Shown one piece after another: positions 39,336-57,791 of a DNA stretch of 64,000 nt (the first letter of the stretch is position 1; each line of letters begins with the position of its first letter). The position numbers and the translations under genes are program-made. Origin of the DNA: Burkholderiaceae bacterium (GTDB lineage Bacteria; Pseudomonadota; Gammaproteobacteria; Burkholderiales; Burkholderiaceae_E); the NCBI GenBank assembly GCA_023954045.1, contig JAMLIR010000001.1:496001-560000 (forward strand). The letters are read 5' to 3'. A model generated the notes under the pieces. That model was given only the letters and a program-made list of their open reading frames with translations. It had not been told where the DNA came from and made no database searches.

Positions 39336-40132
39336 GCGACGTGCTGCTCAGTGCCCGCAATTTGACCGTGCGCTTCGGCGGCGTGCTGGCCGTGAACGAC
39401 GTCAGCTTCGACGTGCGGCGCGGCGAGGTGTTCACGCTGATCGGCCCGAACGGCGCCGGCAAGACCACGGTCTTCAACCTGATCAGCCGCATCTACGCCG
39501 CCACCTCCGGATCGATCGACTTCGAAGGGCAGCCGCTGCGCGCGGTGGCGCCGCACCGCATCGCCGGCCTCGGCATCGCGCGCACGTTCCAGAACATCGA
39601 ACTGTTCGAGCACGCCACCGTGCTGCAGAACCTGCTGATCGGGCGCCACATCCACCGCCGCAGCAGCTTCTGGAGCGAGATCGTCTTCGCGCCTTCGGTG
39701 CGCGCCGCCGAGCGCGAGACCCGGCGCAAGGTCGAGGAGGTGATCGACTTCCTCGACCTGCAGCACTACCGCGACACGATGGTCGCCGGATTGCCGTACG
39801 GCGTGCGCAAGGTCGTCGAGCTTGCGCGCGCGCTGGCGACCGAGCCGAAGCTGCTGCTGCTCGACGAGCCGTCGTCCGGCCTGAACGTCGAGGAGACCGG
39901 GGACATGGCGTTCTGGATCCAGGACATCCGCGACGACCTCGGCATCACGGTGCTGATGGTCGAGCACGACATGTCGCTGGTATCGAAGGTGTCCGACCGG
40001 GTCCTGGCGATGAACCAGGGCGAGGTGCTCGCGCTGGGCACCCCGGCCGAGGTGCAGGGGCACCCCGGGGTCATCGAGGCGTATCTCGGCACCGCCGACG
40101 ACGCGACTTCGCTGCGGAGGCCCGCGGCGTGA
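39332..40132 (+). CDS. livG: LIV-type ABC transporter ATP-binding protein (LivG family)
   Basis: A 266-residue ATPase. Walker A is [15 protein letters not shown], the Q-loop region is [14 protein letters not shown], the signature region is [16 protein letters not shown] (GVRK in place of the usual LSGGQ, as is common in LivG) and Walker B is [12 protein letters not shown], with the switch histidine in VEHDMSLV. Overlaps at both ends (ATGA with livM, GTGA with livF) mark one translation unit. Confidence 0.93.
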
Positions 40133-40902
40133 GCGAGGTCATCCTCAAGCTGCTCAACGTCGAGAGCGCCTACGGGCCGATCAAGGCGATCCGCGGCGTG
40201 AGCCTGCAGGTGCGCGAAGGCGAGATCGCCACGGTGCTGGGCTCCAACGGTGCGGGCAAGACCACGATCCTGAAGACCATCTCGGGGATCATCGACCCCC
40301 GCAAGGGCTCGATCGAATTCCACGGCGAGGACATCACCGCCCGCGATCCCGCCCTGATCGTCCAGCGCGGGCTGTGCCACGTCCCGGAGGGGCGCGAGGT
40401 GTTCCCGCTGCTGTCGGTACGCGACAACCTGATGATGGGCGCCTATACCCGCAAGGACCGCGACGGCGTCGAGCGCGACCTGGAAGCCGTGTTCGGCTAC
40501 TTCCCGATCCTGCGCGAGCGCGCGTCCCAGGACGCAGGGCTGCTCTCGGGTGGCCAGCAGCAGATGCTGGCGATCTCGCGCGCGATCATGGCCGCGCCAC
40601 GGCTGATCCTGCTCGACGAGCCCAGCCTCGGGCTTTCGCCCAAGCTGACCAAGGAAATCTTCGAGATCGTCGTGCGGATCAACCGCGAGCGCGGCACGAC
40701 GATGCTGCTGGTCGAGCAGAACGCCAACATGGCGCTCAATGCCGCCGACTACGGCTACGTGCTCGAGAACGGGCGCATCGTCATGGAGGACAGTTGCGCG
40801 GCGCTGCGCGAGAAGGAAGACATCCGCGAGTTCTATCTCGGCATCAAGGAAAGCGGCGCGCGCGGCGAGCGGCGCTGGAAGAAGCGGAAGACCTGGCGGT
40901 GA
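40129..40902 (+). CDS. livF: LIV-type ABC transporter ATP-binding protein (LivF family)
   Basis: A 257-residue ATPase starting at GTG 40129. Walker A is LGSNGAGKTTILKTI, the signature is LLSGGQQQMLAISRAI and Walker B is LILLDEPSLGLSP, with VEQNANMAL as the switch region typical of LivF. The basic C-terminus (ERRWKKRKTWR) is slightly longer than in E. coli LivF. It ends 4 bases before the ligase gene. Confidence 0.93.
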   Translation: MSEVILKLLNVESAYGPIKAIRGVSLQVREGEIATVLGSNGAGKTTILKTISGIIDPRKGSIEFHGEDITARDPALIVQRGLCHVPEGREVFPLLSVRDNLMMGAYTRKDRDGVERDLEAVFGYFPILRERASQDAGLLSGGQQQMLAISRAIMAAPRLILLDEPSLGLSPKLTKEIFEIVVRINRERGTTMLLVEQNANMALNAADYGYVLENGRIVMEDSCAALREKEDIREFYLGIKESGARGERRWKKRKTWR

Positions 40903-40906
40903 GCGC

Positions 40907-42769: not shown

Positions 42770-42813
42770 CGGTCTCAGGACCCGAATCCGTGTCTGGTGG
42801 AAAGGAGATGCAA

Positions 42814-43977
42814 ATGATGAAACGCACCGCTGTTGCACTGGCGCTCGCCCTGAGCGCACCGTTGGCGTTCGCCCAGAGCCAGGGCGTCACCAAGGACGAG
42901 ATCGTCATCGGCTCGATCCAGGACCTCTCGGGCCCGCTCGCCGGCTTCGGCAAGCAGGATCGCCTCGGGATGATGCTGCGCGTCGACGAGGTCAACGAGC
43001 AGGGCGGCGTCAACGGCCGCAAGCTCCGGCTGATCGTCGAGGACTCCGGTTACGACCCGCGCCGCGCCGTGCTGGCGGCCCAGAAGCTGGTCAACCAGGA
43101 CAAGATCTTCGCGATGGTGGCCCACATCGGCACCGCTCAGAACATGGCGGCGATGCCGATCCAGTTCGAGAAGAACGTCATCAACTTCTTCCCGATCACC
43201 GCCGCTCGCGAGATGTACGAGCCGTTCCACCGCCTGAAGTACTCGTTCGCGGCCACCTACTACGACCAGATCCGCCACGCGGCGCCGAAGCTGGCCAAGG
43301 AGAAGGGCGCCAAGAAGGTCTGCTCGGTCTACCAGGACGACGAGTTCGGGCTCGAGGTGCTGCGCGGCGCCGAAGCCGGGCTGAAGACCATCGGCATGCA
43401 GCTGGCCGAGAAGACCTCGTACAAGCGCGGTGCGACCGACTTCTCGTCGCAGGTCGCCCGCATGAAGTCTGCCGGGTGCGACATGGTCGTGCTTGGCACG
43501 ATCATCCGCGAGACGATCGGCGTCATCGGCGAGTCGCGCAAGACCGGCTTCAACCCGATCTTCCTCGGTTCGAGCGCGTCGTACACCGACCTGATCCACA
43601 AGCTCGGCGGCAAGGCCATGGACGGCCTGTACGCGACCATGACGGTGCAGCAACCGTACCTCGACGAGAGCTCGCAACCCATCCGCTTCTGGGCGAACAA
43701 GTACAAGACGAAGTTCAACGAGGATCCGACCGTGTTCTCGGTCTACGGCTACCTCGCGGTCGATGCTTTCGTCCGCGCCGCGACCAAGGCCGGCCCGAAC
43801 CTGACCACGGATTCGTTCATCAAGGCGATGGACACGATGACGATCCCGACCGACATCTTCGGTAGCGCCGAGATGACCTTCGGGCCGAAGAAGCGCCTGG
43901 GCAACAACCTGTCGCGGCTCTCGCAGATCCAGGACGGCCGCTGGAAGGTGGTCTCGGACTACTTCAAGGGCGATTGA
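42814..43977 (+). CDS. livK: LIV-type ABC transporter substrate-binding protein
   Basis: A 387-residue periplasmic type I binding protein. AAAGGAG (42801-42807) favours ATG 42814 (MMKRTAV...), 6 bases downstream; ATGs at 42808 and 42817 are also in frame. The signal peptide ends near AFAQSQ. Mature blocks are IVIGSIQDLSGPLAGFGKQDRL, VEDSGYDPRRAVLAAQKLVNQD and FLGSSASYTDLIHKLGGKAM. Relatives of this type often bind aromatic or other non-amino-acid carboxylates, which would fit the adjacent ligase. Confidence 0.9.
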   Translation: MMKRTAVALALALSAPLAFAQSQGVTKDEIVIGSIQDLSGPLAGFGKQDRLGMMLRVDEVNEQGGVNGRKLRLIVEDSGYDPRRAVLAAQKLVNQDKIFAMVAHIGTAQNMAAMPIQFEKNVINFFPITAAREMYEPFHRLKYSFAATYYDQIRHAAPKLAKEKGAKKVCSVYQDDEFGLEVLRGAEAGLKTIGMQLAEKTSYKRGATDFSSQVARMKSAGCDMVVLGTIIRETIGVIGESRKTGFNPIFLGSSASYTDLIHKLGGKAMDGLYATMTVQQPYLDESSQPIRFWANKYKTKFNEDPTVFSVYGYLAVDAFVRAATKAGPNLTTDSFIKAMDTMTIPTDIFGSAEMTFGPKKRLGNNLSRLSQIQDGRWKVVSDYFKGD

Positions 43978-44003
43978 GCGCTCGACCCGGATTTCCGGAG
44001 AGC

Positions 44004-44025
44004 GAGGCCGCCGTCGGGCGGTCTC
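44004..44025. terminator. Hairpin 1 in the convergent livK/ACAD gap
   Basis: GAGGCCGCC and GGCGGTCTC pair over 9 positions (one G-T) around a GTCG loop. It shares the core CCGCCGTCGGGCGG with the next hairpin 27 bases on. Confidence 0.5.
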
Positions 44026-44030
44026 TTCGG

Positions 44031-44060
44031 GGAGAGGGCCGCCGTCGGGCGGCCCTCTCC
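44031..44060. terminator. Hairpin 2, strong convergent terminator candidate
   Basis: A perfect 13-bp stem, GGAGAGGGCCGCC (44031-44043) with GGCGGCCCTCTCC (44048-44060), closes a GTCG loop. It lies between two convergent stop codons (43977 and 44065), so it would serve both. There is no T-tract on either side. Confidence 0.6.
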
Positions 44061-44064
44061 GACT

Positions 44065-45216
44065 TCAGCGGGTGCCCAGCCCCATCGCGCGCGTGATCAC
44101 TTCCTTCATGATCTCGTTGGTGCCGCCGTAGATGCGCTGCACGCGCGCGTCGGCGAATGCGCGCGCGATCGGGTACTCCCACATGTAGCCGTAGCCGCCG
44201 TGCAGTTGCACGCACTCGTCGATGACCTTGCACTGCAGGTCCGAGCACCAGTACTTGGCCATCGAAGCAGTGGCGGTGTCCAGCTTGCCGGCCATCAGCA
44301 GTTCGATGCACTTGTCGACGAACACGCGGGCAATCTGCACCTCGGTCTGCAGTTCGGCGAGCTTGAAGCGCGTATTCTGGAACGTCGACACCGTGGTGCC
44401 GAACACCTTGCGCTCCTTCACGTAGTCGCTGGTCCAGTCGATCGCCGCCTGCGCATTCTCGACGGCGCCGATCGCGATCTGCAGGCGCTCCCACGGCAGT
44501 TCCTGCATCAGGTAGGCGAAACCCTCGTTTTCGTTGCCGAGCAGGTTGGCTACGGGTACCTCGACGTTGTCGAAGAAGAGCTCCGACGTGTCTTGCGCCT
44601 TCATCCCCACTTTCTTCAGGCGCTTGCCTTTCTCGAATCCCTTCATGCCGCGCTCGACGAGCAGCAGGCTGGTGCCCTTCGCGCCCGCCTTGGGGTTCGT
44701 CTTGGCCACCACGATCACAACGTCCGCGTGCCAGCCATTGGTGATGAACGTCTTCGAGCCGTTGAGGACGTAGACGTCTCCGTTTCGAATCGCCGTCGTC
44801 TTCACGCCCTGCAGATCGGAACCCGCCGCCGGCTCGCTCATCGCGATCGCGCCGATCGCTTCGCCGGTCGCCATTTTCGGAAGGAATCGGCGCTTCTGTT
44901 CCTCCGAGCCGTAGTGAAGGATGTAGGGCGCCACGATCTCGGAGTGCAGGCCGAACCCCAGCCCGGTCGCGTTGACGCGCGCCGTCTCCTCCATCACCAC
45001 GATCGAATAGAGCTTGTTGGCGCCTGCCCCGCCATAGGCTTCCGGCATCGTCGCGCACAGCATTCCGTTGGCGCCGGCCTTCAGCCAGATCTCGCGATCG
45101 ACGTAGCCCTGCTCCTCCCACTGGTCGTGGTGCGGCACGACCTCCTGCTCCATGAAGCGCCGGACGGCGTCGCGAAACATCTGGTGCTCTTCGGAAAACA
45201 GCGTGCGCTCGATCAT
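44065..45216 (-). CDS. Acyl-CoA dehydrogenase
   Basis: A 383-residue acyl-CoA dehydrogenase from ATG 45216 ([13 protein letters not shown]); the frame extends 25 codons farther but overlaps the thiolase promoter region. Signatures are [40 protein letters not shown], and near the end [21 protein letters not shown] with [12 protein letters not shown], where the catalytic glutamate of long- and medium-chain enzymes is expected (GGTNEI). It is divergent from the thiolase with 73 bases between starts, suggesting joint control of a beta-oxidation cycle. Confidence 0.9.
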
Positions 45217-45289
45217 GGTCCTGCTCCGGGGGAATGCGGTCTGTGCGTGCAGCATAATAGAATGGCCTCGAATCTCCCCGGGAGCTCCC

Positions 45290-46495
45290 ATGGCCGAAGC
45301 ATTCGTCTACGAAGCGATCCGCACGCCACGCGGACGCGGCAAGTCCTCAGGATCCCTGCACGAAGTCAAGCCCGTGCGGCTGCTCACGACGCTGATGCAC
45401 GAAATGCAGCGCCGGCACGACCTCGACACGTCTCAGGTCGAGGACGTCGTCGTCGGCTGCGTGACCCCGGTCGGCGACCAGGGTGCCGTCATCCCGAAGA
45501 CCGCCGCCCTGGCGGCCGGCTGGGACCTGAAGGTGGCGGGCGTGCAGGTCAACCGCTTCTGCGCCTCGGGGCTGGAAGCCGTGAACATGGCCGCGCAAAA
45601 GGTGCGTTCGGGCTGGGAAGACCTGGTCGTGGCCGGCGGCGTCGAGTCGATGTCGCGCGTGCCGATGGGCTCGGACGGCGGCGCCTGGGCGCTCGACCCC
45701 GAGACCAATCTCGCGACGAGCTTCATCCCGCAGGGCATCGGCGCGGACCTGATCGCCACGCTCGACGGATTCTCGCGCGAGATGGTCGACGAGTTCGGCA
45801 TGCGCTCGCATCACAAGGCAGCGGCCGCCCAGCGCGCGGGACACTTCGAGCGCTCGATCGTGCCGGTCGAGGACGACCTGGGCATCGCGATCCTCGAGCG
45901 CGACGAGACGATCCGGCCCGACACGTCGGTCGAGGGGCTCGGACAGCTGAAGCCGTCGTTCGCGAAGATCGGCGCCATGGGGTTCGACGCCGTGGCGCTT
46001 CGCAAGTACCCGCAGGTGGCGCGAATCGACCACGTCCACCACGCCGGGAACTCGTCGGGAATCGTCGACGGCGCGGCGCTGGCCCTGATCGGCAACGAGG
46101 AGGCGGGCAAGCGCCTCGGGCTCACGCCGCGCGCGCGCATCGTCGCGGCCGCGCTGACGGGGACCGACCCCACGATCATGCTCACCGGGCCGATGCCCGC
46201 AACGCGCAAGGCGCTCCAGAAAGCCGGACTGGGCATCGACGACATCGACCTGTTCGAGGTCAACGAGGCGTTCGCGGCCGTCGTGATGCGCTTCGTGCGC
46301 GAACTCGGCGTGCCCGAGGAGAAGGTCAACGTGAACGGCGGAGCGATCGCGATGGGTCACCCGTTGGGTGCGACCGGAGCGGTGCTGCTCGGGACGCTCA
46401 TCGACGAACTCGAGCGCCGCAAACTGAAGCGCGGGCTGGTCACGCTGTGCGTCGGCGGCGGCATGGGGATCGCCACCATCGTCGAGCGCCTCTAG
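45290..46495 (+). CDS. Acetyl-CoA acyltransferase (thiolase)
   Basis: A 401-residue thiolase starting at ATG 45290. The acylated cysteine lies in [16 protein letters not shown], the catalytic histidine in [15 protein letters not shown] and the second cysteine in [21 protein letters not shown] is also diagnostic. It completes beta-oxidation with the divergent acyl-CoA dehydrogenase. A possible -10 (CATAAT, 45253-45258) lies in the shared gap. It could act on the products of the terpene or pimelyl-CoA routes; the substrate is not decided by sequence. Confidence 0.92.
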
Positions 46496-46510
46496 CCGAC
46501 TTGCCCCGGC

Positions 46511-48499
46511 TCAGGCGCGCGCAGTGTTGCCCGCCTGGGCGAAGACGGCGAGCAACTCGCGCAGGCGGTTCAGCTGCGGCGGCTTGGCCATCACCTCGAC
46601 GTCCTCGGGCGCGTCGTTCCGAAGGTCCTCGACGCGGAATTCGCCGGAGAGCAGGATCGCGGGCGTTCGCCTGCCTTCGAGACGGCGCAATTCCTCGATC
46701 AGTCGCAACCCGTCCCACGCGCCGGGCAGCCTGAAGTCCGACACGAGCGCGTCGAAGGAGCGCTCGGCTTCGATGGCCATCGCGAGCGCCTCCTCGCCGT
46801 TCGCGGCGGAATCGACGAGGACGCCCCACTGCTGCAGCACCCGGCCAAGCGCATCGCGCGTCGAATCGTCGTCCTCGATGAGCAGAACGTAGGCGCCCGC
46901 CAGGGCGTCCTCGGGATGCGCGATGCCGGCCGGATCGGCAATCCCTGCCGCGAGAGCCTCCGCGCGACCCGACGCCCAGAGTGCGCCAGGCGCTCCCGCC
47001 GAGTACGGCACCACCGGTGCCTCGCAGAATCGAGCTCTCGCGCGCGATGCCAGGTCCAGGGACGGGACACTGCTCGCGGGTTCACCGCCCACTTGCGACG
47101 ACTCGACGAGCGAGGTGCCAGGCGCGCCGCGGGACGTCGCCGCAGGCATCGTCAGCGAGAACCTGCTGCCGTGTCCGAGCCTCGAAGAGAGTTCGATCGC
47201 ATGCCCCGGCAATCGCGAAACGGCTTCGCGAACGATCGACAAGCCGAGCCCGTGGCCGTGCTCGAGCTGGCGAGCGCGATTGGCGACCTGGAAGTACTCG
47301 TCGAAAACGCGTCGCTGGTCGGCAGGCGCAATGCCGATGCCGTTGTCGCAGACTTCGAGCGCGAGGCGCGTACCGAAGCGCCGTGCGCGGACCAGCACCC
47401 ACCCTGCCCGGTCCGGCGCGGAGAATTTCAGGGCGTTGCCGGTGAGGTTCGACAGGATGTCCCAGAGCCGATTCTCGTTGCTGATCGCGAACCGTCGGCC
47501 GGGACGGGGCAGGCGCACCACCAGCCTGACGCCACGCCGACCCGCCTCGGCCGAATAGACGCTTTCGAGCCGGGCAAGCACCGCGCGCAGATCAGTCGTG
47601 TCGATCGGCAACGGCGCGCTTCGATCGCGCAGCCCGCCGAGATCCGAGAGTCGATCGAGATTCCCGCTGAGCGCGGAGACGCAGGCATCCAGCCGCTCGA
47701 CCGTGTCGGCAAGGCCGGCAGGCCCGAGCACATCGTTGCGCCCACGCAACAGCTGGGCATATAGCGCAAGGCTCGCCAGCGGCTGGCGCAGATCGTGGCT
47801 GACCGCAGCCAGCACACGGGTCTTGGCAGCGTCCGCATCGGCGGCATTGCGCGCCATCTCCTTCAGTGCGCTGGTCGCCTCGGCAAGTTTTCTCGAACTC
47901 CAGAAGAGCGCCCTTTCGCGCCGCTCGATTTCGACGGACATGATCCAACCGATGAGGTTGGCGACCCCCAGATAGATCGCCAGCGCCAGGACATGATCGT
48001 CACCCTGAAAGGAGGAGCCGATGAGTGTAAGAGCCGACGCGGGAAGGCAGGCCATCGCAACGATCGGCGTTGGCAGCCTTGTAAACCCATAGCAGAGCCA
48101 GCATGTCAGCGCCATCGCGACGGGGAAACGATTCACCCCGAGGTCCCCAGAGTCGAGCGGCACCAACCCCATCGAACCTACAACGAGGCATGCGGCCGTC
48201 ATCGGAAGGCCAACGCTGCTGCGAAACCTCTGAATCGCCCGCGGCTCGCGGACGTGGAGATAGACAGCTGCGCCTGCAAGAATCGCGAAGAGGCCCAGAC
48301 GCACTGACTGGCGCGAGACGGATGCCTGACTCGCCGCAGGGGCGATCGCGAGCACCACCCAAAAAGCAAATGCCATCAGAGCCGCAACTACGAAGGCGAT
48401 CTTCGCCAACCTAAGTCCTGACGCTCTGAACTCCGCGAGAAATGCGGACTCTGCCGTCAAATCCTCGAAGCGAATCGGTAGTCTTAGCGCACCCCACAT
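46511..48499 (-). CDS. Hybrid sensor histidine kinase with C-terminal receiver
   Basis: A 662-residue membrane-anchored kinase. Residues 30-190 hold about six hydrophobic helices with short loops, so the input is likely sensed in the membrane. HisKA follows, with the phospho-accepting His235 in AAVSHDLRQPLASL. The ATPase domain has N-box NLTGNALKFS, G1 CDNGIGI and G2 HGHGLGLSI. After an alanine/serine-rich linker (455-530) comes a receiver: acidic pocket LIEDDDSTRD, phospho-acceptor Asp588 in LVSDFRLPG and Lys639 in VMAKPP. No output domain or separate regulator is adjacent. It is divergent from the FeeM-like gene across 357 bases. Confidence 0.88.
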   Translation of the reverse strand: MWGALRLPIRFEDLTAESAFLAEFRASGLRLAKIAFVVAALMAFAFWVVLAIAPAASQASVSRQSVRLGLFAILAGAAVYLHVREPRAIQRFRSSVGLPMTAACLVVGSMGLVPLDSGDLGVNRFPVAMALTCWLCYGFTRLPTPIVAMACLPASALTLIGSSFQGDDHVLALAIYLGVANLIGWIMSVEIERRERALFWSSRKLAEATSALKEMARNAADADAAKTRVLAAVSHDLRQPLASLALYAQLLRGRNDVLGPAGLADTVERLDACVSALSGNLDRLSDLGGLRDRSAPLPIDTTDLRAVLARLESVYSAEAGRRGVRLVVRLPRPGRRFAISNENRLWDILSNLTGNALKFSAPDRAGWVLVRARRFGTRLALEVCDNGIGIAPADQRRVFDEYFQVANRARQLEHGHGLGLSIVREAVSRLPGHAIELSSRLGHGSRFSLTMPAATSRGAPGTSLVESSQVGGEPASSVPSLDLASRARARFCEAPVVPYSAGAPGALWASGRAEALAAGIADPAGIAHPEDALAGAYVLLIEDDDSTRDALGRVLQQWGVLVDSAANGEEALAMAIEAERSFDALVSDFRLPGAWDGLRLIEELRRLEGRRTPAILLSGEFRVEDLRNDAPEDVEVMAKPPQLNRLRELLAVFAQAGNTARA

Positions 48500-48856
48500 A
48501 CCCCGCCCTCGTAAGAACGCGACGCCTCATCCAGACCCTCTAAGCACTCGTGCGCCGCGGCGCCGCGAAGCCAAAACTCTCGCGACAGAAGCAATGACCC
48601 GCCACCAACTGGCAGCCAGACGGCCTGACGCTGACCGCTTGGGCTGGCTAGGCCTCGGTCATGGCGCGTGCCAATTACCAATTGCCGCCGAAGAGTCTCT
48701 TTGAGGAGACAGCTTGAAGCATAAGTTGTTCATGGTTACCCTAGTTGAGCCATCAGGACTAGACCGTGCGAATATGCTGAGCGGAAGCTGACGTCCCCAT
48801 GACGTCTGGACCTTCGGCTCTGCAGGCCGGACAACAATTCGAACGTTGGAGAGGAA
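48500..48856. other. 357-base intergenic region between the kinase and FeeM-like genes
   Basis: No gene could be supported here. The region is more AT-rich than most of the window and holds the likely promoters of both divergent genes. Two direct copies of TGACGTC, at 48789-48795 and 48800-48806, start 11 bases apart, one helical turn. GGAGAGG (48847-48853) is the ribosome site of the FeeM-like gene. Short open frames on the minus strand have no start context or recognisable content. Confidence 0.6.
48789..48806. promoter_or_regulatory. Direct repeat TGACGTC, candidate operator
   Basis: Two exact TGACGTC copies spaced 11 bases start-to-start, about 50 bases before the FeeM-like start codon. 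One-turn phasing on the same face of the helix is typical of binding sites for a dimer or for response regulators. No matching regulator could be assigned. Confidence 0.35.
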
Positions 48857-49675
48857 ATGCTGCGATTGCTGGAGGATCGAACCCCGCTGCGGCAGAGCGG
48901 TAGACCCAGGTTTACGCCAGCGAGCGGTGATACCGGAGCTCCGTATATCCGCCCAGGCGAGTCGCTGCCGATCCGCATCCGCGTTGTGAGAACCGAGAAT
49001 CAGCTAAGCAAGGCGATCAAGGTGCGCGCGGATGCCTACGGCCGCCACACTCCCGCGTTTGCCGACGCATTAAAGGTCGTCGAAGCCGACGACGTTGACA
49101 GAGGCTCACTGGTGTTGCTGGCAGAGTCCAAAGTAACAGGGGAAGCTGTCGGGACTCTGAGAATTCACACAAACTTCAGCGCCCCCACCTACCTCGAGCG
49201 GGTTCTGGAGCTCCCGGAGTTCTTGAGGGGGGCCGGAATCGCTTACGTGACCCGCTTGGCCGTAGCCAACGGACCCAATGGGTCGTCTGTCAAACTGGCC
49301 CTCTTCAAGGCGCTCTACCGGTATTGCCTTGCAACGCAGATTTCATGGATTCTGGCAGTCGCCCGGGAACCGGTGGACCGCGACTTGGCCCGCCTTGGTT
49401 TCCTGGACATCATGCCGAACTCCCAGAAGCTGCGCCGACCCGCAGATTTTGGTGACGTTGATGTCAGGCCGCTCTATTTCGACGTCCTTGAAGCGGAGCA
49501 CAAGTGGCGTGAATCGCGCCACCCTTTGTACGATTTCATGGTGCGCAAGTTCCACCCTGACATCGAGATATTTGCCTCGGTAAGCAGCGCATGGGCTACC
49601 CCACGTCGGCCCAGATCTCGCTCGGCGGTTTTTGAGGGACACTGGCTCGAGCCAGCCCAAATCATGGCCGTGTAG
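48857..49675 (+). CDS. FeeM/LuxI-like N-acyl amino acid synthase family protein
   Basis: A 272-residue protein from ATG 48857 with a good ribosome site. Residues 40-190 resemble the GNAT-like fold of FeeM (N-acyl amino acid synthase) and acyl-homoserine-lactone synthases: IKVRADAYGRHTPAF (the R-x3-Y-x4 start typical of the family), LVLLAESKVTGEAVGTLRIHTN as central strands, and AYVTRLAVANG where the family has a conserved T/S-R-L-x-V. Then KLALFKALYRYC and a RDLARLGFLDIMP segment. No signal peptide or membrane helix is seen, so it is probably cytoplasmic, using acyl-ACP or acyl-CoA. The product is unknown. It is followed in the same direction by a GGDEF-EAL gene. Base composition is AT-richer than flanking genes. 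Confidence 0.65.
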   Translation: MLRLLEDRTPLRQSGRPRFTPASGDTGAPYIRPGESLPIRIRVVRTENQLSKAIKVRADAYGRHTPAFADALKVVEADDVDRGSLVLLAESKVTGEAVGTLRIHTNFSAPTYLERVLELPEFLRGAGIAYVTRLAVANGPNGSSVKLALFKALYRYCLATQISWILAVAREPVDRDLARLGFLDIMPNSQKLRRPADFGDVDVRPLYFDVLEAEHKWRESRHPLYDFMVRKFHPDIEIFASVSSAWATPRRPRSRSAVFEGHWLEPAQIMAV

Positions 49676-49866
49676 GCAACCCCGAGAGCCGAGCCCTGAG
49701 GCCGGATGGCCCGAGTCTCGGCGAGCGCCCCCTTCTTCTAGCGTCTCGGCAGCGCAACGCCGTCTGCCAGTGACCGAACGCCGCCCGTCCGACCGGCACG
49801 GGCGCTGCAGGAGGCTACAGGTATTTTCGGGGTGACCTCGGGGAATTTCCGAGGCGAGTGGTTCCT

Positions 49867-52839
49867 ATGGCCTCGAGAAGCAGACTAAAACTACCCAGCC
49901 GACGCCGACTCGCCGGACTGACTGACCGGGTTCTCGCCCGCTTCAGTCTGTTTACTGCCGTCATCGTACTTGCTATCGCTTGCGTAGCTGCCGCGTACGT
50001 TGTCGCGCATAGTCGCGAGGCAACTTTCCTGCCTGATTCAGTTGGCTCCCTCCTTCCCGATCCTGACAACCGATTCGGGCTTGAGGAGGCTTCTCGAAGG
50101 TTCAGCACGAGCGACGCAATCCGCCTTGAGAAGGGCGGCAGCCTGCGGTTCCGCACGGTTTGGATTCGCATCGAGCTGTCTGGAAAAGGGCCGCTTGCCG
50201 ATCGACGACTGTCCCTCCAGTCTCTACGTGCCGAGACAGCGAAATTCTGGGCGCTGGCTCCAGCCGGCGACGTCGTCGCATCTGACCTCCCGTGGTCAGC
50301 GCTCCGCAATGGGGTCGCGATCGAACTCCCCCAAGACCATGGAGACGAGATCACCGTGATTGGACGGATCGAGCCGATCGCGATCAATCGTGTCCAGATC
50401 TCGCTGAGATCTCAGTCGGAGATAACCTCACGCGATTTTCTTTTCGAGCGCACCGGCGGACTACTTGTCGGGTCGCTGCTAATGGTCTCGTTCTTCAGCC
50501 TCGTAGTTGCCGTCTTCATTCGCGATAGAACCTTCTTCCTCTACTCGGCATGGCTCGTCACGAGCCTTAGGATCGCCGCATACAACGGGGACTGGGACCC
50601 TTACTGGCTCGACATCCCGCTTAGCGGCGAACCGCTACAGCTGTTTCTCCGACTCACTTACATTGCGCACAGTCTGATCTCATTGGCGCTCTTTGAGGCT
50701 CTGTTTGGCAAGGAGTTGCAGAGTGCCAAGCTTGGCAAACCGATCAAGTTTCTACAACTTGCCACGGTTGCGATGTTCGTTCCCGCAATATTTCTCGAGG
50801 CAAACCATTCCATCAAGCTTCTATGGGCTCTGAGCGGCGGAACGATTCTGGCGGTCTTCTTCGTACTCAGCATGCTTTCGATCAGGGCTCCATCTAGAGC
50901 ACTGGCTTGGTATTTCGGGTCTTGGGTGATCACCTTGACAGGGTCGATTGCACAAATCGCCTTCTCGATGGGATTCTGGCGCGAAATCCTCAACATTGCG
51001 AACAGCCAGATAACGTCAGTTGGTTCGGCATTGATGCTCGGCGTGACGCTTGCGCAAAGGATGAACGCCGAGAGACAAGCACGAATCTCCGCCCAGCACA
51101 GCGCGGTCAGCGCCCTTCAGCGCTTCCGCGAGAACTACAACGCCATGCCCGTTGGCATCTTCTCGATGAAGCAGGATGGAACGCTGATCGAACACAACCC
51201 GACGTTCGCGGACATGTTCCCCAGCAACGGCCGCCGCAACTCCAAGATCGGCCTGAACTGGGTCGATCTGATGGGCTCCGACGCCCTGAAGGCCGTCGAG
51301 GAACTGGCTGCCAGCGACCGGATGATGGACACCGAGCTGGCGGTCCAGCGTACGGACGGCAAGCGGCGCTGGTTCCATGTGCGCGCCGTGCGAAAGGCAG
51401 ACCGCTACGAGGGTTGGATCGAGGAGATCACGGCTCGCAAGGAGGCCGAAGGGCAACTCAAGTTCCTCGTCGACCACGATTCGCTCACCGGTCTTCTGAA
51501 CCGCCGAGGCTTCGAGATCCACCTGCAGACGGCGATCGGCTCGGCGGGCAATCGGCAGATCTGCCTTGCCTACGTCGACCTCGATCGCTTCAAGCTGGTG
51601 AACGACCTCTTCGGGCACGCCGCAGGGGACCAGATCCTTCGCCAGATGGCGACCCGCATGCGCGAGGTCATCCGGCCGCCGAACGTAGCTGCGCGAGTCG
51701 GCGGCGACGAGTTCGTCGTCATCATCGACGGGACCTCGCTCGACTCAGCGAAGGCGCTTTGCGAGAAGTTGCGCATCGACCTCAGCGACCGCGCCTACCA
51801 GTACCAGGACAAGGCGTTCAACGTGACGGCGAGCATCGGCCTGATCCGCGTGCTGGACAACATGCGCCCCGCCGACGCGCTCACGGCCAGCGACCGCGCC
51901 TGCTCGGAGGCCAAGGCATCGGGTGGCTCGACGGTCGTTTCCTACGATTCGAGCAGCAGCGAACTCCTGAACTACCTCGACGAGATCAAGCTCGTCGCCG
52001 GGATGAAGGAGCGCCTGCCGGTCGAGAACTTCTTCACCCAGCTTCAGCCGATCGTCTCCCTGCGCAACCCCGCGTCGAGCCTGTGCTACGAGGTCCTGAT
52101 CCGGATGCGGGACACGAACGGACAGGTTCTCCCGCCGGGCCGCTTCATCCCGGCCGCAGAGCGCAACGGCCTGATGACACAGATCGACCGCTGGGTGCTG
52201 CGCAGTACGCTGGAATGGCTCGATTCGCAGCCCGAGCATCGCAGCAACGTCGATTTCTGCACGTTGAACCTGAGCGGCGCATCGCTGAACGACGAGAAGT
52301 TCCTGCAGGACACGATCGCCCTGATCCGCGCGCATCCGGAGTCGACGCGAAAGGTCTGCTTCGAGATCACCGAGAGCGTCGCGCTGTACGACCTGAACAC
52401 CACGCGGCGCTTCGTCGATCGCGTGAAGTCTTTCGGCGCGATGGTCGCGCTCGACGACTTCGGCGCCGGCTATACCTCTTTCAGCTACCTGAAGGAGCTC
52501 CCGGGCGACCTGGTCAAGATCGACGGGAACTTCATCCGCGACGTGAACCTGAACCGAGCGAACTTCGCGATCACCCGCGCGGTCGTCGACCTCGCGCACG
52601 AGCTCGGCATGGGCTGTGTTGCCGAGTGGGCCGAGAACGCCGGCATCGTCAGGTCGCTGATCGAACTCCAGGTCGACTACGCCCAGGGCTACGGGGTTTG
52701 CCGCCCGCTGGACCGCGAGCGGCTGCTCGCGGTGCCCAATGCGGCGACCCTGATCCGCGACCAGGAGACGGCGGACCTCATCCTGGGCAGCGCGATCGCC
52801 TCGCGCGACGCGTCGCACCGGATCACGCTGCCGATCTGA
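49867..52839 (+). CDS. Membrane-bound PAS-GGDEF-EAL cyclic-di-GMP enzyme (7TMR-DISM-like sensor)
   Basis: A 990-residue protein from ATG 49867; GTG 49858 is 3 codons earlier with GAGG close by. A first helix (about 26-47) leads to an extracytoplasmic domain (50-190) and then seven further hydrophobic segments up to about 400, like 7TMR-DISM sensors. A PAS domain spans about 415-525. GGDEF is intact at residue 612 (ARVGGDEFVV); the upstream inhibitory-site position reads RPPN, not RxxD. The EAL domain has EVLIRM (742), NLSG, FEITES, LDDFGAGY (about 863) and VKIDG, so it looks catalytic. Both synthesis and breakdown of c-di-GMP are possible. The first 410 residues are encoded by AT-richer DNA than the rest. 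Confidence 0.88.
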   Translation: MASRSRLKLPSRRRLAGLTDRVLARFSLFTAVIVLAIACVAAAYVVAHSREATFLPDSVGSLLPDPDNRFGLEEASRRFSTSDAIRLEKGGSLRFRTVWIRIELSGKGPLADRRLSLQSLRAETAKFWALAPAGDVVASDLPWSALRNGVAIELPQDHGDEITVIGRIEPIAINRVQISLRSQSEITSRDFLFERTGGLLVGSLLMVSFFSLVVAVFIRDRTFFLYSAWLVTSLRIAAYNGDWDPYWLDIPLSGEPLQLFLRLTYIAHSLISLALFEALFGKELQSAKLGKPIKFLQLATVAMFVPAIFLEANHSIKLLWALSGGTILAVFFVLSMLSIRAPSRALAWYFGSWVITLTGSIAQIAFSMGFWREILNIANSQITSVGSALMLGVTLAQRMNAERQARISAQHSAVSALQRFRENYNAMPVGIFSMKQDGTLIEHNPTFADMFPSNGRRNSKIGLNWVDLMGSDALKAVEELAASDRMMDTELAVQRTDGKRRWFHVRAVRKADRYEGWIEEITARKEAEGQLKFLVDHDSLTGLLNRRGFEIHLQTAIGSAGNRQICLAYVDLDRFKLVNDLFGHAAGDQILRQMATRMREVIRPPNVAARVGGDEFVVIIDGTSLDSAKALCEKLRIDLSDRAYQYQDKAFNVTASIGLIRVLDNMRPADALTASDRACSEAKASGGSTVVSYDSSSSELLNYLDEIKLVAGMKERLPVENFFTQLQPIVSLRNPASSLCYEVLIRMRDTNGQVLPPGRFIPAAERNGLMTQIDRWVLRSTLEWLDSQPEHRSNVDFCTLNLSGASLNDEKFLQDTIALIRAHPESTRKVCFEITESVALYDLNTTRRFVDRVKSFGAMVALDDFGAGYTSFSYLKELPGDLVKIDGNFIRDVNLNRANFAITRAVVDLAHELGMGCVAEWAENAGIVRSLIELQVDYAQGYGVCRPLDRERLLAVPNAATLIRDQETADLILGSAIASRDASHRITLPI

Positions 52840-52957
52840 CGCTTCGGCGCACGCCGGTGCCGGGCCTCGGCATCGGCCCTTCCCGGCCAGCCGGGCGGCG
52901 CCTTCCGACGGTTTATGATTGGGCGCTTCCGATCATTCCAGCCCGTCCGGAGACCGA

Positions 52958-55294
52958 ATGTCCAGCATCCGCTACGAGAAGGACGCCAACGGCGTCGTCA
53001 CCCTGCTTCTCGATGCCCCAGACCAGCCGGTCAACACGATGAATGCGGGCTTCCAGGCCGACCTGAGGAGGAGCGTCGAGCGCCTGGAGGCGGAGCGCCA
53101 CCACATCCGGGGCGTGATCCTCACGTCGGCCAAGCGGACCTTCTTCGCGGGCGGCGACCTGCGCGCACTGATCGCGGTCCGCGCCGACGACGCCCCGGCG
53201 TTCTTCCGCGAACTGGAGGCAATGAAGGCATGCCTTCGCCGCATCGAGAAACTCGGGCGGCCCGTGGTCGCGGCGATCAATGGCAGCGCCCTCGGCGGCG
53301 GACTCGAGATCGCGCTTTCCTGCCACGCGCGCCTCTGCATCGATGATCCGTCGATCGAAATCGGGTTCCCCGAAGTGACGCTGGGTCTGCTGCCCGGCGC
53401 CGGCGGCGTCGTGAAGACCGTACGCCTGCTCGGACTGCAGGCCGCGCTTCCTTTTCTGAGCGAGGGCCGCCGCGTCGCGCCTGCGAAGGCGCTCGACATG
53501 GGCCTGATCGACGGGCTCGCGCGCGATCGCGACGACCTGCTGGCGCGCGCGCTCGCCTGGATCGACACCCACCCCCACGCTCATCAGCCCTGGGACGACC
53601 CGAAGCACCGGATCCCCGGCGGCACGCCATCGAGCCCCGCGGTCGCGGGAGTGCTGCCGATCGCGCCGGCGATCCTGCAGCAGCAGACACGCGGCAACTT
53701 TCCCGCTCCCGAGGCGATCCTCGCGGCGGCGGTCGAAAGTGCCCAGGTGGACTTCGACACGGCAATGCGCATCGAGTCGCGCTACATGACCCGACTGGTC
53801 ACCGGGCAGGTCGCGAAGAACATGATCGGGACGCTGTTCTTCCAGCTCAACGACGTGAAGGCCGGCAAGAGCCGACCTGCCGACCCGCCGCGCTGGCGGG
53901 CTGCCCGAGTCGGCGTCCTCGGGGCCGGGATGATGGGGTCCGGCATCGCGTGGGCGTGCGCGAGCCGCGGGGTCCCCTGCGTCCTCGAGGACGTCGAACT
54001 CGCGAAAGCCGAGCAAGGCAAGTCCTATTCGGCGCGCCTGCTCGCCAAGCGCGTCGAGAAGGGGCGCATGACCGCCGCCGAGGCGGAAAAGGTGCTTGCG
54101 GCGATCACTCCGACCGCAGCGGTCGGCGATCTTGCCGACTGCGACCTGGTCATCGAGGCAGTGTTCGAGAACCGTGACCTGAAGGCCCGCGTCACCCGTG
54201 AGGCCGAAGCGGCGCTCGCGGGCGACGCCGTGGTCGCGTCGAACACGTCGACGCTCCCGATCACCGGGCTCGCGGAGGCGTCGAAGCGCCCGGAGCGCTT
54301 CATCGGCCTGCACTTCTTCTCGCCGGTCGATCGCATGCAGCTGGTCGAGATCATCAAGGGCAAGCGGACTTCGGCCGACACGCTGGCTCGTGCCTACGAT
54401 TTCGTGCTCCAGATCGGCAAGACGCCGATCGTGGTCAACGATTCGCGAGGCTTCTACACGAGCCGGGTCTTCGGAACCTTCGTCAACGAGGGAATGGCAC
54501 TGGTCGGCGAAGGGGTCCCGGCTGCGATGGTGGAGAACGCAGGCTGGCAGATCGGGATGCCGGTCGGGCCGCTCGCGGTGCTCGACGAAGTGTCGCTGAA
54601 GCTCGCCGACGACGTACTCCACCAGGAACTCGCCGACCTGGAACGCGAGCAGCAAGGGCACGAACACGGCCACGCGCGCGGGCACGCGCATGGCCACGAC
54701 CACGAGCATGCCCACGAACATCGCCACGGCGATGGCCGTGAGCATGGACACGAGCATGGTCACGAGCATGGACACGAACATGCCCACGACCACGGCCACG
54801 CGATGGCGAGTCATTCGGCCGCCGGTCATCGCCATGCCCACAAGGTGAAGAGCCGGAGGGTGCCGGAGTCGGCCGTGTACGTGCTCGAGAAGATGGCGCA
54901 CGGCTTCAAGCGGATGGGCCGCGCCTACGGCGGGGGCTTCTACGACTATCCGCAGGACGCGGAGAAGGCGCTTTGGCCCGGCCTGAAGGTGTTCGAGCGC
55001 GGCGGACGCGCGATTCCTTTCGAGGACGTGAAGGACCGCATGCTGTATGCGCAAGCGATCGAATCGGTGCGCTGCCTCGAGGAAGGCGTGCTCGAGTCGA
55101 CGCGCGACGCGAACATCGGTTCGATCTTCGGATGGGGATTCCCGGCCTGGACCGGCGGCACCATCCAGTTCGTCAACCATGTCGGCGTGCGCGCGTTCGT
55201 CGCGCGCGCCCGGGAGCTCGCGCAACGCTACGGCGAGCGCTTCGCCCCGCCGGCGTCGCTGCTGAAGCACGCCGAGCAGGACACCCCCCTATAG
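52958..55294 (+). CDS. FadB/FadJ-type enoyl-CoA hydratase/3-hydroxyacyl-CoA dehydrogenase with His-rich insert
   Basis: A 778-residue bifunctional beta-oxidation enzyme from ATG 52958. The N-terminal crotonase domain (1-200) has SAKRTFFAGGDLRAL and INGSALGGGLEIALSCHARL. The NAD-binding domain begins near residue 312 with VGVLGAGMMGSGIAWA and contains SNTSTLPIT and FIGLHFFSPVDRMQLVEI. The first C-terminal dehydrogenase domain follows (NDSRGFYTSRVFGTFVNE). Residues 568-628 are then a 61-residue segment with 25 histidines, mostly His at alternate positions with Glu, Gly, Ala or Asp, before normal sequence resumes (YGGGFYDYP). Part of it is coded by tandem 12-base repeats. The enzyme would act in beta-oxidation of the acyl-CoAs made in this region. 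Confidence 0.9.
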   Translation: MSSIRYEKDANGVVTLLLDAPDQPVNTMNAGFQADLRRSVERLEAERHHIRGVILTSAKRTFFAGGDLRALIAVRADDAPAFFRELEAMKACLRRIEKLGRPVVAAINGSALGGGLEIALSCHARLCIDDPSIEIGFPEVTLGLLPGAGGVVKTVRLLGLQAALPFLSEGRRVAPAKALDMGLIDGLARDRDDLLARALAWIDTHPHAHQPWDDPKHRIPGGTPSSPAVAGVLPIAPAILQQQTRGNFPAPEAILAAAVESAQVDFDTAMRIESRYMTRLVTGQVAKNMIGTLFFQLNDVKAGKSRPADPPRWRAARVGVLGAGMMGSGIAWACASRGVPCVLEDVELAKAEQGKSYSARLLAKRVEKGRMTAAEAEKVLAAITPTAAVGDLADCDLVIEAVFENRDLKARVTREAEAALAGDAVVASNTSTLPITGLAEASKRPERFIGLHFFSPVDRMQLVEIIKGKRTSADTLARAYDFVLQIGKTPIVVNDSRGFYTSRVFGTFVNEGMALVGEGVPAAMVENAGWQIGMPVGPLAVLDEVSLKLADDVLHQELADLEREQQGHEHGHARGHAHGHDHEHAHEHRHGDGREHGHEHGHEHGHEHAHDHGHAMASHSAAGHRHAHKVKSRRVPESAVYVLEKMAHGFKRMGRAYGGGFYDYPQDAEKALWPGLKVFERGGRAIPFEDVKDRMLYAQAIESVRCLEEGVLESTRDANIGSIFGWGFPAWTGGTIQFVNHVGVRAFVARARELAQRYGERFAPPASLLKHAEQDTPL
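54740..54787 (+). repeat. Tandem 12-base repeat inside the FadB-like gene
   Basis: Four consecutive 12-base units: GAGCATGGACAC, GAGCATGGTCAC, GAGCATGGACAC and GAACATGCCCAC. Each encodes E-H-G-H or E-H-A-H. Frame is kept because the unit is a multiple of three. The array is a likely site of slippage and length variation between strains. Confidence 0.85.
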
Positions 55295-55306
55295 GAGGGA
55301 CACGCG

Positions 55307-56113
55307 ATGTCCGGATCGGTAACCACTGTGCGGCAAGACGGCGACCGGGCGGTCACCGTCGAACACGATGGTCCCGTGACGATCGTGACGCTGTCGCGGC
55401 CCGAGGCGCGCAACGCGGTCGACCGCCCCACCGCCGAAGCGCTTGCATCGGCCTTCGCGCAGTTCGACGCAGATCCCGCGCGCAGCGTCGCGGTATTCCA
55501 CGGTGCCAACGGCCACTTCTGCGCCGGCGCGGACCTCAAGGCGCTCGCCGGCGGCGCTCGCCGCAACCGTCTCGCGCCGGATGGCGACGGCCCGATGGGC
55601 CCGAGCCGGATGCTGCTCTCGAAACCGGTCGTCGCGGCGATCTCGGGCTACGCGGTCGCCGGCGGCCTCGAACTGGCGCTGTGGTGCGACCTCAGGATCG
55701 TCGAGCAGACTGCCACCCTCGGCGTGTTTTGCCGCCGCTTCGGCGTCCCGCTGATCGACGGCGGCACGGTGCGCCTGCCGCGCCTGATCGGCCTGTCGCA
55801 TGCGCTCGACCTGATCCTGACCGGGCGCGCAGTGACGGCCGAAGAGGCGATGCGGATCGGGCTGGCCAACCGGATCGTGCCCGACGGGACCTCGCGCGCG
55901 GCGGCGGTCGCGCTCGCCCAGGAACTCGCAGCGCTGCCGCAGACGTGCCTGCGCAACGATCGGCGCTCGGCCTACGAGCAGTCCGGCCTCACGATCGACG
56001 AGGCGCTCGCCAACGAGTTCGCGCTGGGCATGCGCACGCTCGAGGACGACGAGGCCATCGCCGGCGCAACGCGTTTCGCCGCGGGTGCCGGGCGCCACGG
56101 CGCCACGAGCTGA
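55307..56113 (+). CDS. Enoyl-CoA hydratase/isomerase family protein
   Basis: A 268-residue crotonase, 12 bases after the FadB-like gene. The N-terminal block is VTIVTLSRPEARNAVDRPTA, oxyanion-loop residues are NGHFCAGADLKAL, and SGYAVAGGLELALWCDLRI follows. In the catalytic region FGVPLIDGGTVRLPRLIG one of the two glutamates of true hydratases is replaced, so hydratase activity is doubtful. The same pattern is common in a group annotated simply as crotonase/enoyl-CoA hydratase. Confidence 0.85.
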   Translation: MSGSVTTVRQDGDRAVTVEHDGPVTIVTLSRPEARNAVDRPTAEALASAFAQFDADPARSVAVFHGANGHFCAGADLKALAGGARRNRLAPDGDGPMGPSRMLLSKPVVAAISGYAVAGGLELALWCDLRIVEQTATLGVFCRRFGVPLIDGGTVRLPRLIGLSHALDLILTGRAVTAEEAMRIGLANRIVPDGTSRAAAVALAQELAALPQTCLRNDRRSAYEQSGLTIDEALANEFALGMRTLEDDEAIAGATRFAAGAGRHGATS

Positions 56114-56135
56114 GCTGGCCGGGAACACCCCGAAA

Positions 56136-57791
56136 GTGACCACGACCGTCCGCCCCGAGAAGCGGCTGCACCCCTGGCGGGAGCCCGTCAGGCCCCGTCC
56201 CGCCGCGACGATCCTCCTGCTGCGCGACACCGGGGACGGGCCGCAGGTGCTGATGACGCGCCGGTCGGCGCAGGCGAGCTTTGCCCCGGGCGCCTACGTC
56301 TTTCCCGGCGGTGTCGTCGACGCGCGCGACGCGTCGCCGCTGGCCCGCGAGCGCGCCGACGTCCGTGCCGACCAGGACGAAGAGGTCCTTTCGTTCGCGA
56401 CCGCGGCCGTGCGCGAGGCGTTCGAGGAGCTCGGCATCCTGCTGGCACGGGGTGGCGCGCACGCCGCGGCGATCGCCGACATCGCGCGGCGACTCGACCG
56501 CCGTCGCGAAGCCGACCTGTTCTCGCAGGTCGCCGAACGCGGGCTGCGGCTGGCCCTGGACGAGGTGCACTGGCTCAGCCATTGGGTCACCGACCGCGAT
56601 CTTCCGAAACGCTTCGACGCGCGATTCTTCGTCGCGCGCATGCCCGAGCACCAGCAGCCGGTCGCCGACGAAGGCGAGCAGTTCGAGCCGATCTGGGTGA
56701 CACCAGCCGAGGGGCTCGCGCGGCACGCGGAACGGAAGTTCAACATCATCTTCCCGACGATCCGCACGCTTCGCCAGCTCACGCGCTTCGGCAGCGTCGA
56801 CGAGGTCATCGAACATGCCCGCAGCCAGGCGAGCATCCGCGTCTCGTGCCCGCGCGGAGGCTGGTTGCGCGGGCGCATCGAGCGCTTCAGCGAGGACGAG
56901 CTGCCCTACGGCGAGCTCGAACTGGTGACGCCGGACGGCAGCATCCACCACTCGCTCGACTGGCAATCCGAGCGCGTGGTGCCGTTGCTGCGGCACGTGC
57001 ATCGGCTGACCGCGCCCAACCCGGGGCGGATGACCGGGCCGGGAACGAACACGTACCTGGTCGGCGCCCCGGGCGACTGGCTCGTGATCGACCCGGGGCC
57101 CGACGATGCGGCGCACATCGACCGGATCGCCGCGTTCGTCGGCGACGGGCTGAAGACGATCGTCTGCACGCACGCGCACCCCGACCACGCGCCCGGCGCC
57201 CGGCCGTTGCAGCGGCGCACCGGCGCGAAGATCGTCGGGCGGCCGAGCGGGCCGGACTTCAATCCGGACTGGGCCTTCAGCCCGGACGAGACGCTCGAAG
57301 ACGGCGCGCGGCTGCGAGTGGGCGACTCGACGCTACGGGTGCTGCACACCCCCGGCCACGCGGAGCACCACGTCTGCCTGCTGCTGGAGGAGGACGGGCT
57401 GCTGTTCTCCGGCGATCACATCCTCAACGGATCGACGACCGTCGTCGACCCGCCCGACGGCGACATGCGCGCGTACGTGGCGTCGCTCGAAAGGCTGGCC
57501 GCAGAGCCGTTCGAGTTCATCCTGCCCGCGCACGGGCACGTGATCGCACGCGCCAAGACCGAGATCGCCCGACTGATCGCGCACCGGATGGCACGCGAGG
57601 CCAAGGTCGTCGGCGCGCTCGATCGCCTGGGCGGCGGCACGCTCGACGAGCTGGTGGTGCTCGCCTACGACGACGTCGATCCGATCCTGCACCCGGTGGC
57701 CATGCGCTCGCTCACCGCGCACCTGCTGAAGTTGCGGGACGAGCGGCGCGCGACGCTCGACGAGCGCACGAAGCGCTGGCAACCGGCCTGA
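56136..57791 (+). CDS. NUDIX hydrolase - metallo-beta-lactamase fold fusion
   Basis: A 551-residue two-domain protein from GTG 56136; the frame runs farther upstream but would overlap the previous gene. The N-terminal NUDIX-like domain (about 20-200) has [13 protein letters not shown] and the Nudix-box-like helix [14 protein letters not shown]. The C-terminal metallo-beta-lactamase domain (about 290-500) has the zinc motif HAHPDHAPG, then [27 protein letters not shown] and a winged-helix tail as in LACTB2-like hydrolases. LACTB2-group proteins act on thioesters or RNA. The NUDIX part may hydrolyse CoA or nucleotides, which would suit an acyl-CoA setting. Confidence 0.85.

Follow-up and report, generated by a model that had tools for sequence, protein, structure and literature searches.

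What holds a membrane kinase, an acyltransferase, and a cyclic di-GMP (c-di-GMP) enzyme together at one locus, and what might pass between them? The question is raised by a 64,000-nucleotide stretch of a Burkholderiaceae bacterium assembly (GCA_023954045.1, contig JAMLIR010000001.1, positions 496,001 to 560,000), hereafter the window. It carries genes for a hybrid kinase (KIN), a FeeM/LuxI-like N-acyltransferase (FEEM), and a PAS-GGDEF-EAL protein with a seven-helix sensor (GE). The original prediction, made from the sequence alone, proposed a signalling island in which a small N-acyl product is made under kinase control and sensed in the membrane to set c-di-GMP levels. Comparison with related loci revealed a polymorphic unit, consisting of the KIN transmembrane sensor, FEEM, and the GE periplasmic/seven-transmembrane (7TM) sensor, which is exchanged as one set. 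We consider it probable that the locus encodes a self-signalling system whose specificity can be exchanged, in which FEEM makes a strain-specific acylated signal that both sensors recognise and that feeds c-di-GMP and a phosphorelay. The features are as follows.

46511..47962, minus strand: KIN catalytic half (about residues 180-662) with HisKA, HATPase, and receiver domains (Pfam); common to both allele classes.
47963..48499, minus strand: transmembrane sensor of KIN (residues 1-179), forming the left end of the exchanged cassette (identity drop, hydrophobic segments, GC3).
48500..48856, no strand: intergenic region between divergent KIN and FEEM, inside the exchanged cassette (between the identity breakpoints).
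48857..49675, plus strand: FEEM, FeeM/LuxI-fold N-acyltransferase, putative signal synthase (profile and fold); a ribosome-binding-like GAGAGGA precedes the ATG.
49858..51077, plus strand: GE sensor half (about residues 1-406), an anchor helix, a RetS/7TMR-DISMED2-like periplasmic domain, and a seven-helix 7TMR-DISM domain; right part of the cassette (Pfam, model).
51078..52839, plus strand: GE catalytic half (about residues 407-993) with PAS, GGDEF, and EAL-type domains; common to both classes (Pfam, motifs, identity).

A second contig of the window's own assembly (L039, G000:C33; 11,587 bp) carries another allele. It aligns to window positions 39475-47962 without gaps at 99.41% DNA identity, with 49 mismatches in 39526-41126 and none over the 6.8 kb of 41127-47947. 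Identity collapses from 47948-47963 and returns at 51079-51143 (95.4%), where the L039 contig ends; these breakpoints correspond to KIN residues 166-184 and GE residues 404-411. Inside the cassette, protein identity between the window and L039 is 38% for the KIN sensor, 55% for FEEM, and 26% for the GE sensor. Outside, it is 100% for the KIN catalytic half, the receiver, ACAD, THIO, and ABCbp (the ABCbp value is for this pair only); KIN is fully identical over residues 221-460 and 535-650, and the GE catalytic half of L039, cut by the contig end, allowed 18 residues to be compared. L039 is read as the allele of a sister strain, the alternative being a second copy in one genome. The tract of single-nucleotide differences and the difference-free run behind it also form a mosaic of identity that stops where the cassette begins, which is what recent recombination would be expected to leave.

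The same arrangement was seen in two other metagenome-assembled genomes (MAGs), L072 (class A, as the window) and L083 (class B, as L039). Their flanks share 94.1% and 92.5% DNA identity, with one gap over the cassette. Protein identity is 36% for the KIN sensor, 53% for FEEM, and 26% for the GE sensor, versus 98% for both catalytic halves and 95-99% for the flanks, and the class boundaries are nearly equal to those of the window and L039. Members of one class resemble each other across species: the KIN sensor, FEEM, and GE sensor share 85, 92, and 81% between the window and L072, and 81, 90, and 75% between L039 and L083. Both same-class pairs align through the cassette, interrupted by roughly 200-bp gaps in the vicinity of the KIN-FEEM intergenic region. 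Allele classes, at least two in number, cross species, and their boundaries lie near both sensor/catalytic hinges.

Similar blocks were found in two other lineages. In a third pair (L088/L094, two further MAGs), identity is 31% for the KIN sensor, 55% for FEEM, and 24% for the GE periplasmic domain versus 78% for the GE catalytic half and 88% for ACAD. The strain-level records of Pseudorhodoferax Leaf274 and Leaf265 (L108/L148), which have no KIN match, share 75% in FEEM, 51% in the GE periplasmic domain, and 96% in the GE catalytic half. Here a block of 50-80% DNA identity covers the 3' part of FEEM and the GE sensor, and the flanks are 88-90% identical overall; synonymous divergence (dS) is 0.81, 0.84, and 0.22 for FEEM, the GE periplasmic domain, and the GE catalytic half, respectively.

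The boundaries can be placed on the domain architecture of KIN and GE. An open reading frame (ORF) check confirmed the three genes and their ends: KIN, 46511-48499 (-), 662 amino acids (aa); FEEM, 48857-49675 (+), 272 aa; and GE, 49858-52839 (+), 993 aa. KIN and FEEM are divergent with a gap of 357 bp, and GE follows FEEM after 182 bp. KIN exceeds the Pfam cut-offs for HisKA, HATPase_c, and Response_reg, has the His motif SHDLRQP at residue 234, and contains hydrophobic segments between residues 26 and 191; domains and segments agree with the membrane hybrid kinase originally described. Its identity collapses inside the last segment (168-191). GE exceeds the cut-offs for 7TMR-DISM_7TM (40 bits, cut-off 29), GGDEF, and EAL, with PAS_9 under its own, which upholds a seven-helix sensor joined to PAS-GGDEF-EAL. 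Identity returns between the 7TM domain (to residue 401) and the PAS match (from 431). The GGDEF motif lies at residue 615, and the EAL-type domain has YEVLIRM at 744 (reading EVL) and DDFGAG at 866. The GE model (pLDDT 86.8) shows an anchor helix and a periplasmic domain rich in beta strands (63-185), together with seven long helices that reach residue 429. The periplasmic DISMED2-type match is 15.8 bits, under the cut-off of 22, and the RetS sensor 2xbz was matched at an E-value of 3.7e-4.

Trees were compared using eight loci of class A and five of class B; rows that were missing or broken were omitted, and each tree has 10-13 rows. The FEEM, GE-sensor, and KIN-sensor trees each require 1 class change, the GE catalytic and ACAD trees 3, and the KIN catalytic and HAD trees 4. 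L080, with frame breaks in GE, KIN, and THIO, was dropped from both sensor trees, and its THIO row is long. The approximately unbiased (AU) test rejected class B as one clade for the GE catalytic half, the KIN catalytic half, HAD, and THIO (p below 0.001), with the window and L039 left free where identical. L087 and L079 were in the AU trees and not in the class-change counts, which took only rows labelled A or B. From these trees, the pattern is read as a probable trans-species polymorphism in which the catalytic halves are freely exchanged.

The linkage of the genes was assessed in 80 loci kept from 206 confirmed relatives; the carriers are soil and water bacteria related to Burkholderia. 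GE adjoins FEEM in 76 of the 80 (matches at most 1.3 kb apart), mostly in betaproteobacteria: downstream on the same strand in 72, divergent in 2 (L087, L092), and convergent in 2 (L130, L141). Three of the other loci (L113, L134, L093) end soon after FEEM, the tails of L113 and L134 resembling the GE N-terminus by eye, and L144 has no GE match. Since the query alignment, A1, consisted of 22 FEEMs adjoining GE, 76/80 is not an unbiased rate. KIN lies near FEEM in 22 of the 80 loci; given both counts, the grouping is not chance. A lack of co-occurrence in other genomes had been named beforehand as refuting the circuit, and this check did not refute it. The island does not belong to this genome alone: FEEM-GE pairs occur widely in Burkholderiales and in other betaproteobacteria, and the kinase was seen only in loci close to the window's own. 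Because the pair occurs in named strains (Zeimonas arvi, Quisquiliibacterium transsilvanicum, Caballeronia, Pseudorhodoferax), the system is testable.

In the reciprocal direction, a GE-sensor profile, itself made from FEEM-linked GEs, was searched in 61 genomes and gave 33 rows. Twenty-two of the 24 best matches (295 bits or more, a line set after the list was inspected) adjoin FEEM. For G019, the match sits close to the end of its contig and FEEM lies at the end of a different one, and the G023:C223 match has no FEEM. Nine rows were weaker: one is the second piece of a broken gene in G005, and eight (35 to 284 bits) are not beside an identified FEEM position.

Several relatives show other arrangements. 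Distant FEEM paralogues (L055-L069; 15 loci, of which L057 and L065 are at contig ends) had no GE match at an E-value of 1e-4; two others, L070 and L071, have nearby matches at the GGDEF-EAL level (165 and 156 bits). L053 (G021:C56) is a FEEM relative (42%) beside two adjacent other-strand genes with GGDEF-level matches (86 bits each), perhaps another FEEM/c-di-GMP arrangement. In the window's own genome, L061 (G000:C47:127000-145000) is a FEEM paralogue of 36% identity with Glu at position 130 and without GE; the same stretch holds the genome's only Autoind_synth match (C47:128682-128978), which is not at the locus studied here. Tandem FEEM genes lie upstream of one GE in L103 and L117 (Pigmentiphaga litoralis and a Rhodoferax MAG), possibly as two-signal or duplicated-synthase variants. 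The contigs of L072, L078, L085, and L087 are labelled Actinomycetes, Pirellula, Deltaproteobacteria, and Methanoregulaceae, yet carry a burkholderial-type locus, and are probably mis-binned.

FEEM itself is a distant member of its fold. It scored 25.5 bits against Pfam FeeM (PF21926; cut-off 27) in one scan and 26.8 in another (recorded as 'yes, 27 with its neighbours'). No NCBIfam model was over its cut-off, and the Pfam scan gave neither an Autoind_synth (PF00765) match at an E-value of 0.001 nor a PilZ match. A PDB sequence search with FEEM or its profile returned nothing below 0.05, FeeM (2g0b) standing at 0.24. The AlphaFold model (pLDDT 80.9) had BjaI (2.5e-8), FeeM 2g0b (2.8e-8), and LasI (6.2e-7) among its best fold matches, with a TM-score of 0.70 to 2g0b by target length; at an E-value of 0.001 or better it matched 474 chains, general GNAT acetyltransferases included. 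By its predicted fold, FEEM is a distant FeeM/LuxI-fold acyltransferase, and the FeeM/LuxI-like label is borne out in that sense. An assignment to the exosortase-system acyltransferases was rejected (24.9 bits, cut-off 111.95).

The FEEM alignment has 122 rows, including repeats of the same contig (106 distinct). R57, D79, R102, and K151 are invariant, R133 is kept in 120 rows, and position 76 is E or D in all 122. At position 130, 73 rows have E, 22 have Y, and 12 have H. With modest strength, hhalign placed Y130 and R133 of the window on the E and R of the E..R motif, both in FeeM-type genes of other Burkholderiales (probability 77%) and in LuxI-type genes (58%). The column of the catalytic Glu (FeeM Glu95, Nas354 Glu103) is thus Tyr130 in the window and class A and His in class B. 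On this alignment, the kinase-linked clade has changed its presumed general base, differently in each class. The proposed check of catalytic residues gave a mixed result: R57, D79, R102, R133, and E/D76 are conserved, but the Glu is replaced.

The self-signalling system would work as follows. FEEM would transfer an acyl group to an amine-bearing acceptor, yielding an amphiphilic product that leaves the cytoplasm or partitions into the membrane. The GE periplasmic/7TM sensor would recognise this product and set the GGDEF-EAL output, and hence c-di-GMP. In the window's relatives, the KIN transmembrane sensor would also recognise it and start a phosphorelay. Since synthase and sensor halves have to match, they would be inherited together and exchanged as a single cassette, and the catalytic halves behind them, common to both classes, would recombine freely. 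What FEEM makes, that this product is exported and bound by both sensors, which way the c-di-GMP output goes, and that matching causes the linkage are our inferences. Synthase and receptor sensors co-vary by class, and catalytic parts and flanks do not, with L087 as the exception; by analogy, this cassette pattern resembles that of pherotype loci such as comQXP. Matching between the FEEM product and both sensor halves is the most economical account. The signalling circuit of the original prediction keeps its conserved FEEM-GE pair and a GE sensor matched to FEEM, the latter supported indirectly but strongly since the two are exchanged together. Synthesis under kinase control is unsupported as stated: the KIN sensor half travels with the synthase and the catalytic half does not, so KIN is more like a second receptor. 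The kinase as controller of the synthase is not favoured, its sensor half belonging to the cassette.

The following points weigh against this self-signalling system. All A/B evidence comes from MAGs, and a single 11.6 kb contig carries the same-species comparison, although near-identical boundaries in separate assemblies and open reading frames make chimerism unlikely; assembly or polishing could have inflated the 6.8 kb run without mismatches. The AU result for ACAD was non-significant (p 0.28). In the third lineage, the 91% identity of the KIN catalytic half in L088/L094 covers 33 residues, and the half is only 66% identical in L089/L094, which weakens the contrast. A class swap was looked for in 11 Caballeronia-group loci (one titled Burkholderia turbans) and was not seen. 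L087, a mosaic allele on a 6.3 kb contig that is assigned to an archaeal MAG, breaks the triple linkage: it has a class-A-like KIN sensor, a third-type FEEM and GE sensor, and FEEM inverted relative to GE, with an ORF that by eye looks transposase-like (3387-4202) between FEEM and KIN. The KIN sensor is therefore less firmly linked than FEEM and the GE sensor are to each other. Some GE relatives have no FEEM (G023:C223, G023:C134, G021:C17), so GE-type sensors can read something else, and DISMED2 domains are predicted to bind carbohydrates in the excerpts of one source (PMC8846402). Glu at position 130 is found in 1 of 24 kinase-linked FEEMs versus 53 of 58 loci without a KIN match (repeats removed). 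In excerpts on Nas354, Glu103Ala abolished the hemolytic and surface-active phenotypes (PMC4897644); with the Glu replaced, catalysis by the window FEEM is not assured.

An arms race at the cell surface could also maintain such diversity. FEEM would then make a membrane or secreted acyl lipid, such as a surfactant-like N-acyl amino acid; phages, predators, or toxins would exploit the exposed sensors or the lipid; and escape would keep the diversity, with the sensors doing no more than monitor the envelope. Each sensor half is a membrane domain, the GE periplasmic domain is the fastest-diverging segment, and surfactant-like N-acyl amino acids are described as products of FeeM-type enzymes in excerpts of the same source (PMC4897644). 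This account does not explain why the class of a cytoplasmic enzyme stays linked to that of two separate sensors while the catalytic halves exchange, and the FEEM-GE pair extends far beyond the genus with the A/B polymorphism. We regard it as unlikely.

Less likely still, the kinase-linked FEEM has lost catalysis and serves as a binding or scaffold protein for the cytoplasmic face of the sensors or for acyl-CoA/ACP. At the Glu position, 23 of the 24 kinase-linked members have Y, H, G, F, or Q, as loss would allow. GNAT enzymes, however, need not rely on one fixed general base, and the other conserved positions are kept. FEEM is under purifying selection within a class: dN/dS is 0.02-0.04 in three of four within-class pairs, the fourth being saturated, and a dS of 1.6-2.2 makes these ratios rough. 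A binding-only role would not by itself predict the class-linked divergence of the extracytoplasmic domains.

A neutral history is improbable. Here, horizontal transfer would have brought together two ancient sets of homologous genes, and recombination would end at the hinges from low homology inside, with no recognition involved. Homologous recombination must indeed stop where similarity stops, and G+C content at third codon positions (GC3) is lower in the cassette (KIN sensor 68, FEEM 70, GE sensor 65%) than in the catalytic halves (79-90%; KIN catalytic 79%). Out-of-frame GC3 values for THIO and, in one set, for the GE catalytic half were discarded, as was the THIO dN for L039-L082, which reflects a frame error. 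Against a neutral history, the classes persist in several species while the flanks are homogenised, the trees have 3-4 class changes, within-class cassette dS exceeds flank dS (lower codon bias could contribute), and the two other lineages have similar blocks.

Among known systems, RpfF/RpfR and the comQXP pherotypes are, by analogy, probably the closest functional relatives. RpfF has the crotonase fold and produces a fatty acid, RpfR contains GGDEF-EAL, and their genes are adjacent. Like the present locus, RpfF/RpfR of Burkholderia (signal BDSF) joins a signal synthase to a PAS-GGDEF-EAL receptor in betaproteobacteria; sensing there is by the PAS domain, whereas here a GNAT-fold acyltransferase (FEEM, by its model, does not have the crotonase fold), a periplasmic/7TM sensor, a kinase, and a swapped cassette are found. 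RpfR is described as a PAS-domain phosphodiesterase receptor in the excerpts cited above (PMC8846402). LuxI-type acyl-homoserine lactone (AHL) synthases (BjaI, LasI, MesI) resemble FEEM in fold and in R133 of the E..R motif, but FEEM neighbours KIN and GE rather than a LuxR-type regulator, lacks an Autoind_synth match, and has its Glu replaced. RetS-type 7TMR-DISM receptors share the sensor architecture of GE, which differs in its GGDEF-EAL output and linked acyltransferase gene. Pherotype loci are mostly known from Gram-positive peptide systems; comQXPA shares a receptor with a conserved catalytic half and differs in its peptide signal, isoprenyl transferase, Gram-positive host, and lack of a c-di-GMP enzyme. 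In excerpts on Bacillus, comQXPA is a polymorphic synthase, signal, and receptor locus with strain-specific groups, and in this it is like the present locus (PMC4408185). FeeM-type N-acyl amino acid synthases resemble FEEM in fold and distant profile match, and Nas343/Nas354 also in a c-di-GMP connection, these FeeM-like enzymes being reported with PilZ in the source excerpted above (PMC4897644); the window FEEM differs in its replaced Glu, absent PilZ match, and pairing with membrane sensors.

In the open-licence PubMed Central literature, we found no description of this synthase-sensor system and no link of an N-acyl amino acid synthase with GGDEF, or of 7TMR-DISM with an acyltransferase and GGDEF; FeeM appeared with c-di-GMP only for Nas343/354, and pherotype with diguanylate only on Bacillus. 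The chances seem even that the locus represents a new Gram-negative communication family, with an AHL-synthase-fold enzyme outside the FeeM and LuxI families whose signals are detected by two receptors at the surface of the cell, a 7TM c-di-GMP receptor and a hybrid kinase. One species would be split into private dialects by exchange of the synthase and two-sensor cassette under long-term balancing selection, with an active-site residue changing between dialects. The matched-set exchange suggests a private chemical language not described before. If so, betaproteobacteria would have a quorum-sensing class wired directly to c-di-GMP, in which a synthase of the GNAT fold is matched to a pair of membrane sensors, and natural A/B allele pairs would test synthase-receptor specificity directly. 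Few ligands of 7TMR-DISM receptors are known to us, and FEEM would be a candidate ligand source.

Elsewhere in the window, Rfam models at gathering scores had no match in 44000-56000, and a promoter scan of 48300-50000 found none; terminator-like sites there (3 versus 1.5 in shuffles) were not used as evidence. The sole tRNA found is a tRNA-Arg (CCT) at 13506-13581. Positions 52958-55294 encode an enoyl-CoA hydratase/3-hydroxyacyl-CoA dehydrogenase with a long histidine-rich (HGHEHG-type) stretch after the 3HCDH match. A single ORF at 56085-57791 joins NUDIX and metallo-beta-lactamase domains to a BLACT_WH tail, and ORFs of similar length with a Nudix-like start, by eye, lie near the GE relatives in L153 and L155.
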